NCBI RefSeq assembly: GCF_017696175.1
Contig: NZ_JAAORE010000003.1
Coordinates: 248,001-312,000 of the forward strand
Origin: Prochlorococcus marinus XMU1404
GTDB taxonomy: Bacteria; Cyanobacteriota; Cyanobacteriia; PCC-6307; Cyanobiaceae
Direction of reading: 5' to 3'
DNA length: 64,000 nucleotides
Shown in pieces: positions 149 to 38,289 of this stretch. The position numbers and the translations under genes are program-made. Each line of letters starts with the position of its first letter. The stretch's first letter is position 1. The notes under the pieces were generated by a model. It searched no databases. It saw nothing but the letters and a program-made list of their open reading frames with translations, and had not been told where the DNA came from.

Positions 149-1072
149 ATGGAAACTAAGGATGGATTCTTAATAATCAATAAAGAAAAAGGTTGTACAT
201 CTCATGATTGCGTTAAACAAATACGCAACTTATTAAATACAAAAAAAGTTGGCCATGCAGGAACTCTTGATCCAGAAGTTACAGGAATATTACCAATTGC
301 CATAGGCAGTGCAACAAGATTTATTCAATATCTTCCCCAGGGGAAAACTTATATTGGACAAATTAAATTAGGTATTAGAACAAGTACTGATGATATTCAT
401 GGCAAAATAATAAACCGAAAAGATTGGCCTAAAATCAGTAATAAGAAATTAGATCAATATTTAAATAAATTCAGAGGAATAATTAAACAAGTTCCGCCAA
501 AAGTATCTAGTGTACATGTCAATGGAGAGAGAGCATATAAAAAATCTTTTAAAAATGAAAATTTTGAATTAGAACCAAGAAAAGTAACAATAGACGAACT
601 CCTTTTAATAAAATGGGACCAAATAAATGGAATCATAGAAATAAAAATCAAATGTTCCGCTGGTACATATATAAGATCAATTGCAAGAGATGTAGGTGAA
701 ATTCTTAATTCCGAAGGTTGTCTTCTACAACTAAAAAGAGTTTCAGCTTGCGGCTTTGATGAACAAAACTCTATTAAAATATCTGACATTGAAAAAGATA
801 AAGGCAAAAAAAACGCAACAAATTATATTATTCCGACACTCTCTGCTCTCAATCACATTTCAACATTAGTCTTAAATAAAGAAGAAGAAATAAATTTTTG
901 GCGAACTGGAAGAGCTATTAAAGTTAATACAAGTTACTTAAATAAAAGCAAATTTTTTGATTATAAGAGACCCATAAAGGTAGTGGACAAAAGAAAAGCT
1001 CTTCTTGGTATAGGCTTTTTTAATAAAGAACAAACTGATATAAATCCAAAATTGGTCCTTAATGCAAAATAA
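149..1072 (+). CDS. truB: tRNA pseudouridine-55 synthase TruB
   Basis: The enzyme isomerises U55 in the T-loop of tRNAs in the cytoplasm. The N-terminal half carries the TruB catalytic motif [15 protein letters not shown] near residues 35-49, with the presumed catalytic Asp at residue 41, followed by a GSATRF segment. A second family motif, [16 protein letters not shown], follows near residues 170-185. The 307-residue length is usual for bacterial TruB with a degenerate C-terminal tail. The ATG start is chosen because the family normally begins with a short [10 protein letters not shown]-type strand, as here. It converges with the SpoIID-like gene, whose stop lies 5 bases beyond its own. Confidence 0.95.
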
Positions 1073-33035: not shown

Positions 33036-33131
33036 TTAGCATTTAGGAAGTGCTAAGCCGGTTAAGATCAAAAAATCTGAATTTAACTTGCACGTCATGA
33101 GCTTGCTAGAGGGATACTCGCAAGCTCTTTA
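33036..33131 (+). ncRNA. Candidate small RNA with three hairpins
   Basis: It sits in a 450-base gene-free stretch (32814-33263) and has no credible reading frame. Hairpin 1 is TTAGCA/TGCTAA (33036-33056). Hairpin 2 is GTTAA..TTAAC enclosing AGAT/ATCT (33061-33088). Hairpin 3 is GAGCTTGC/GCAAGCTC with the AGGGATAC loop and a T-run (33099-33130). A palindrome-linked -10 ends 5 bases upstream. The rest of the 450-base stretch holds the hli promoter and otherwise nothing I can name. Confidence 0.6.
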
Positions 33132-37339: not shown

Positions 37340-38139
37340 TAGGTTTTTATTTAATCAAATTTATTTGAGGACATTATCAATTAGCGATTCATTATATATG
37401 TAATAAATCCAGTAAATGTAAGTAATTTAAATGCGATAAAGAGAGGCAGATATTTTTTAACTTTTTTGCCAGCCAGTAATAATCTATTTAATGAATTCAC
37501 TTTTGTTGGTATTAAAATCTTTTAAAACTCTAACGAATTTTTTTTAAATTATACCTGATAAAATTTATTCTTTTTGTTGTTTTAGGAAAATATCTTCTTT
37601 TTTGCTAGATAATTTGATTTTCAGGAAAAAATATAAACTTTTGAAAGACTAACACCAATATCAAAAGCTAATAAAGCAATTAGCAACTTATTCATTTTTT
37701 AGAACTCTCAACTATTTTTTTGTAAAGTTCTTCAGAAATAGGTTTCATACCTTTTAAAAATCTTTTCTACAAAATAGTTATTTTTAGATTAATTTCTAGT
37801 GACGAAATATACGAATATATTAATTTTTAAATAGGTTAAAAATATCTTCACAATAAGTTTTCCTTATAAGGTATCAATCAATACTAAGTTAAAAAGTTCA
37901 AGAAATGTCCAAACTTTTATAAAAAATAGTTTATGACTAATAAATTTATCTAGTTTTTAAGTTTAATTTCCCTTCTAATTAATAGCAATTGTTTTATTAA
38001 GGCAAAACTCATAAAGTCCAAGTTTATTGGATATCTAAAAGAAAATTATAAATCTTATTTCAAGTAACTAGATCCTCTATAGGTAAGCTTTATAACCTTT
38101 TCTTCTTGTTTTCTACAATAAACGAATGACTTTCCATTG
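37340..38139. other. Gene-poor stretch left of the 38.2 kb small RNA
   Basis: There is no frame longer than about 30 codons with good features. Two tiny minus-strand frames overlap by ATGA: 37748-37692 (18 codons, MKPISEELYKKIVESSKK) and 37695-37621 (24 codons, one hydrophobic stretch). They could be translated microproteins or chance. Otherwise it is AT-rich, with stops in all frames. Confidence 0.4.
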
Positions 38140-38255
38140 AAAAACATGTTCACCATGATGCAGCTCCTAAACTTGCTCAAGTCCCCGTCCTATGGCTTGA
38201 GTCGTACTGCGGTCTATCAAACGGTAGATCGGACGATTTTGTAGCATTTGCTACA
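38140..38255 (-). ncRNA. Candidate small RNA of ~115 nt
   Basis: This block is clearly more GC-rich than its surroundings and non-coding. On the minus strand the 5' end forms TGTAGCA/TGCTACA (38255-38240), starting about 6 bases after a consensus promoter. A second hairpin is CTCAAG/CTTGAG around a C/G-rich loop (38204-38179), with weaker pairing between the two. A short CATG/CATG hairpin followed by five T ends near 38139. No match to a known class is claimed. Confidence 0.6.
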
Positions 38256-38260
38256 CTCTA

Positions 38261-38289
38261 TTTATAAAGTATTTATACTTAGTTGTCAA
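38261..38289 (-). promoter_or_regulatory. Consensus promoter with embedded palindrome for the 38.2 kb RNA
   Basis: On the minus strand TTGACA (38289-38284), a 17-base spacer and TATAAA (38266-38261). The spacer contains CTAAGTATAAATACTT (38282-38267), identical to the site at 11200. A full -35 box is rare among the AT-rich promoters of this genome type. Confidence 0.6.

Follow-up and report, generated by a model that had tools for sequence, protein, structure and literature searches.

Organization of the locus

The minus strand of the window, the 64-kb stretch of DNA that we analyzed, carries a promoter with a consensus -35 hexamer, a palindrome of the NtcA type, a glutamine-II (Gln-II) aptamer, and a 33-codon gene in close succession (Table 1). 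The original prediction of a TTGACA hexamer, a 17-nt spacer, and TATAAA on this strand was borne out, and the exact arrangement occurs a single time in the window; when up to one mismatch was allowed, 2 occurrences were observed compared to 1.8 expected. The block was also found to be GC-richer than its surroundings, as had been claimed (0.45 versus about 0.20–0.27 in the nearby DNA). The box GTAGCAAATGCTAC follows six bases after TATAAA, and the predicted transcription start (+1) is the first G of its GTAGC, at position 38254. Over a set of 147 Gln-II loci, the consensus -10 hexamer was located at -12 to -7 from this first G.

Table 1 Features identified at the locus, with positions given for the window
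Feature	Position	Strand	Remarks
-35 hexamer TTGACA	38284..38289	minus	Exact match; TTGACA retained in most of the orthologous promoters listed
-10 hexamer TATAAA	38261..38266	minus	Spacer of 17 nt from TTGACA
Predicted NtcA-type operator GTAGCAAATGCTAC (GTA-N8-TAC)	38241..38254	minus	Overlaps the predicted +1
Glutamine-II riboswitch aptamer, RF01704 (downstream-peptide)	38176..38238	minus	cmscan 58.5 bits, model 1-60 complete
Shine-Dalgarno sequence AGGAG	38164..38168	minus	Ahead of ATG 38156
CTGC beside the Shine-Dalgarno sequence	38160..38163	minus	Complement of GCAG in the aptamer's linking strand; tentative expression platform
33-codon gene, product MVNMFFNGKSFVYCRKQEEKVIKLTYRGSSYLK, DUF4278-like	38055..38156	minus	pN/pS 0.15

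An additional element, GTATC-N4-GAAC (searched as GTAWC-N3-6-GAAC), was present in 48 of 152 distinct Gln-II promoters of other genera (L064, L065, L074, L108, and L142, among others) compared to 4 of 2165 control windows. The element starts at -48 to -50 from the first G of the palindromic box, about 66–71 nt 5' of the aptamer, and, judged by this spacing, it lies where an activator would sit. The window promoter does not contain the element; TTGACA is present instead. The pattern GTTC-N5-GAAC was absent from the regions 5' of the Gln-II loci, where the looser GTAWC-N3-6-GAAC was found.

The aptamer

The original prediction could assign the block to no RNA class that it knew. A search of all Rfam families instead returned RF01704 as the single match at the locus, covering the full model with a score of 58.5 bits compared to a gathering score of 33 (E = 1.4e-11 over the whole window). 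A small RNA of a novel class is ruled out by this full-length, above-threshold match, and the "unknown sRNA" is resolved as a member of a known riboswitch class.

Comparison of homologous loci established the aptamer and its conservation at the level of sequence. The two strands of the pseudoknot were CGTTC/GAACG in 120 distinct loci and CGTCC/GGACG in 31, with one exception, such that pair 4 is T-A in the former and C-G in the latter; the window copy has CGTCC/GGACG, which fits the pattern of 5' CGUNC with 3' GNACG. Compensatory changes in homologues had been proposed as a check on the structure, and they were found: the stems are kept, pair 4 of the pseudoknot covaries, and P2 is compensated in two loci, L164 and L166 (GAATCAAG/CTTGATC). 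The folding energy was unremarkable both for the 116-nt leader (z = -0.76) and for the whole 201-nt transcript (z = +0.58), so our claim of structure derives from the covariance-model match and the pseudoknot covariation. The window copy shares with the RF01704 class the full-length match, the pseudoknot, both helices, a short ORF directly 3', and a picocyanobacterial host, and nothing essential differs; its own traits are the consensus -35 hexamer and a peptide with a diverged N-terminal repeat. Judged from these sequence comparisons, the feature is a glutamine-II riboswitch of the known type, and the gene whose leader contains it is short and conserved.

In published work, type-2 glutamine riboswitches are found ahead of DUF4278 genes, whose expression rises with glutamine (PMC6316151). 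The crystal structure of glutamine-II is that of an ON switch, probably a translational one (PMC6698751). By analogy with these published relatives, the window aptamer would bind L-glutamine and act in the ON direction. In the predicted fold, GCAG of the aptamer pairs with CUGC beside the Shine-Dalgarno sequence. CTGC is kept in 29 of 30 listed orthologues and is CTGT in the other; GCAG is invariant, so the pairing provides no covariation to test. The modeled GCAG:CUGC pairing is a possible expression platform, the exact form of which we infer.

The small protein gene

The block had been described as having no reading frame, which was not borne out: the ATG lies within the range that had been reported, 20 nt 3' of the aptamer, and is preceded by AGGAG. 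Among 38 distinct 33-codon orthologues, pN/pS was about 0.15 and the third positions varied most. This ratio indicates that the ORF is under purifying selection, and the alignments thus document a coding constraint.

The constraint bears on the proposal that the RNA functions by itself. A stand-alone regulatory sRNA, either trans-acting or bifunctional, was first suggested for yfr6, which was initially catalogued among the non-coding RNAs, with a bifunctional role also being discussed (PMC2518516), and a structured, GC-rich block behind a promoter of its own would suit such a role. We nevertheless regard this explanation as highly improbable for the window locus, where a ribosome-binding site and a frame subject to purifying selection directly follow the aptamer, and where a minus-strand scan revealed no terminator-like site after the aptamer. 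The earlier designation of a candidate small RNA thus stands with respect to a structured RNA that has its own promoter, but the RNA is a riboswitch leader rather than a stand-alone sRNA.

The window peptide has no match in Pfam or NCBIfam, and so does not reach the cut-off for DUF4278 (PF14105); among the orthologue peptides, 2 of 10 gave a DUF4278 hit, with a best E of only 0.065. The C-terminal LTYRGSSY (pattern LTYRGxxY) aligns with DUF4278 downstream peptides (hhalign probability of 83% over 15 columns), and the first repeat has FNGKSF in place of YRGxxY. Because the peptide has no Pfam match yet its C-terminal repeat aligns, we refer to it as DUF4278-like and not as a member of the family. 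The peptide of a paralogous locus in this genome (L001) passes the DUF4278 cut-off with 33.1 bits. By comparison with the DUF4278-bearing IF17 or with PII-binding small proteins elsewhere, the window peptide probably curbs nitrogen assimilation.

The downstream-peptide motif is that of yfr6, the transcript of which starts some 20 nt ahead of the motif (PMC2864571). Yfr6 of Prochlorococcus MED4 and the window locus have in common a short RNA, the downstream-peptide motif, and a 33-aa frame (PMC2864571, PMC2518516), whereas Yfr6 lies opposite Yfr14 and encodes a peptide that begins MTLIYRGQKY; the window locus is a paralogue. The Gln-II match at 627894-627956 of the genome that is likely MED4 (G015) falls within the published Yfr14/Yfr6 region (PMC2518516), and Yfr6 therefore corresponds to L001, not to the window copy.

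The palindrome at the predicted start

The NtcA consensus is GTA-N8-TAC. The box GTAGCAAATGCTAC has this pattern, lies inside TGTA...TACA, and spans about +1 to +14. The entire palindrome, TGTAGCAAATGCTACA (38255..38240), is predicted to fold as RNA into a 6-bp stem capped by a 4-nt loop. The original prediction had interpreted it as a 5'-terminal hairpin; its position at the expected start and its predicted stem were confirmed, but the palindrome is better read as a DNA operator of the NtcA type.

A GTA-N8-TAC box was located 17–23 nt 5' of the aptamer in 147 of 153 distinct Gln-II loci, compared to 33 of 2202 control windows (1.5%) from the same loci, and its fixed position is thus documented across the sequences. 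The stricter form, GTAGC-N4-GCTAC, has three occurrences in this genome, all at Gln-II loci. When tallied over 14 genomes, 32 of 43 such boxes adjoined a Gln-II aptamer; of the other 11, which are without Gln-II, at least three are situated in long open frames and two within long inverted repeats. In L223 and L224, GTAGC-N4-GCTAC stands at the center of near-perfect intergenic inverted repeats of about 50 bases that are unlike the Gln-II operators and are possibly terminators or mobile repeats.

Three above-threshold Gln-I riboswitches (L191, L192, and L198), from genomes without a listed Gln-II match, are also preceded by a GTA-N8-TAC box, at -23. The box is thus common to two structurally different aptamers and therefore behaves as a separate module. 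Many weaker Gln-I-type (RF01739) matches (L193-L213) have no such box; the sequences that these have in common are TGTTCACCATGAACA, a few tens of bases 5', and GAAGGACAA, directly before the match. In L193, the match is followed by a 72-aa frame containing YRG repeats and by a PII-like gene (552..890, minus strand).

The genome has a gene for NtcA (365 bits). A positive-control search detected no perfect GTA-N8-TAC 5' of the glnA or ntcA genes of this genome, and amt1 has no nearby box, the nearest GTA-N8-TAC being 327 bases 5' of the match. A perfect box is therefore no general mark of NtcA control here.

An alternative is that the palindrome functions mainly as a 5'-terminal RNA hairpin, stabilizing the mRNA or forming part of the switch, with NtcA uninvolved. 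The palindrome would be transcribed and its 6-bp stem is predicted, and among close orthologues positions 5 and 10 of the box are pairable in 94 of 96 distinct haplotypes, with G-U in six and C-A in one. Across the family (147 boxes), however, the same positions are T-G, which is wobble-compatible, in 12 and C-A, which breaks the closing pair in RNA, in 14, a balance that would be expected of a symmetric DNA site. Although these two sets of counts (12:14 and 6:1) are not decisive between a DNA role and an RNA role, we consider the hairpin explanation unlikely: the sequence conforms exactly to GTA-N8-TAC and keeps a fixed position behind the -10 hexamer, the box also precedes the structurally different Gln-I class, and a related NtcA motif has already been described together with a type-2 glutamine riboswitch at PMM1846 of MED4 (PMC6316151). 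For gifA and gifB, repression by NtcA acts through sites that are centered on the core promoter (PMC6316151). We infer from the sequences that the palindrome is a repressor operator rather than a part of the RNA, with NtcA as its binder and repressor.

Proposed regulation

The features suggest a scheme with two gates. Transcription from the consensus -35 promoter would start at about 38254, where it is overlapped by the NtcA-type dyad. When nitrogen is short, NtcA loaded with 2-oxoglutarate would occupy the dyad and obstruct RNA polymerase; with ample nitrogen, it would dissociate and the leader would be transcribed. Glutamine would then close the pseudoknot and free the Shine-Dalgarno sequence, such that translation would be ON at high glutamine only. 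Nitrogen plenty would thus both remove NtcA and supply glutamine, opening both gates and allowing the peptide to be made. With a probability of about 0.85, we read the locus as a gene that encodes a 33-aa DUF4278-like protein and is gated by nitrogen through an NtcA-type operator and a Gln-II ON switch.

The nearest parallel is gifB, encoding IF17, of Synechocystis, which likewise combines an NtcA-type operator at the core promoter and a glutamine ON switch with a DUF4278 motif; in the window copy, the operator and the ON switch are predicted and the peptide is DUF4278-like. The aptamer of gifB is of type 1 (Gln-I), whereas that of the window is Gln-II, and IF17 possesses a GS-binding part that is missing from the 33-aa window peptide.

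Type-2 glutamine riboswitches, yfr6, and the NtcA motif at one such gene were already known from published work. The most useful addition is the near-universal operator in the family, found by comparison to have a fixed place at +1. A wider generalization can be offered tentatively, and we judge it somewhat less probable than its failure: nearly all marine picocyanobacterial Gln-II riboswitches would be wired to the stricter NtcA-type operator (GTAGC-N4-GCTAC) at +1, which is common to Gln-I loci, and a single leader would read 2-oxoglutarate and glutamine as an AND gate; many genera would add the activator-like GTATC-N4-GAAC (-48 to -50), which would be replaced by the consensus -35 hexamer in the class of the window. 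The proposed scheme offers a simple model of how Prochlorococcus, which has few regulators, could integrate two nitrogen signals at a tiny gene.

Copies and distribution

RF01704 matches were detected in 99 of 101 genomes sampled from the same genus and in 126 of 201 from the same family; the 14 control genomes had none. Within a named collection, the operator-aptamer stretch was found in Prochlorococcus records and in a few uncultured Synechococcaceae isolates; a search for phage copies yielded none at E 0.01. Two Gln-II copies, L004 (G000:C3:16389-16452) and L134, are without any GTA-N8-TAC box, and the aptamer of L004 precedes a 56-aa frame that has no Pfam match.

This genome has four Gln-II copies, of which the window copy has the second-lowest score (58.5 bits). 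At L156 (1328527-1328741), which is likely the MED4 homologue of this copy, and at its sister L157, the box and the aptamer have decayed together, and in L172 the homologous locus is present with the segment missing. One might suppose that the window copy is a riboswitch in decay that no longer functions, lodged in a genomic island that varies between strains, given its low rank among the four, the broken homologues in MED4 and G012, and the loss of the segment in G042. This is most improbable for the present genome, in which every part is intact, from promoter and box through aptamer and Shine-Dalgarno sequence to the ORF; dozens of orthologues are likewise intact, with a pN/pS of 0.15. We retain the reading of an intact glutamine-II riboswitch; given the degenerate state of the homologue that MED4 has in this island, the window copy is dispensable in some strains.

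The Yfr20 small RNA (RF02367, 83 bits) is located at 33037..33126 on the plus strand of the window, about 5 kb from the riboswitch, which places the locus in the counterpart of MED4 genomic island 5. In MED4, the likely homologue (L156) also sits near Yfr20.
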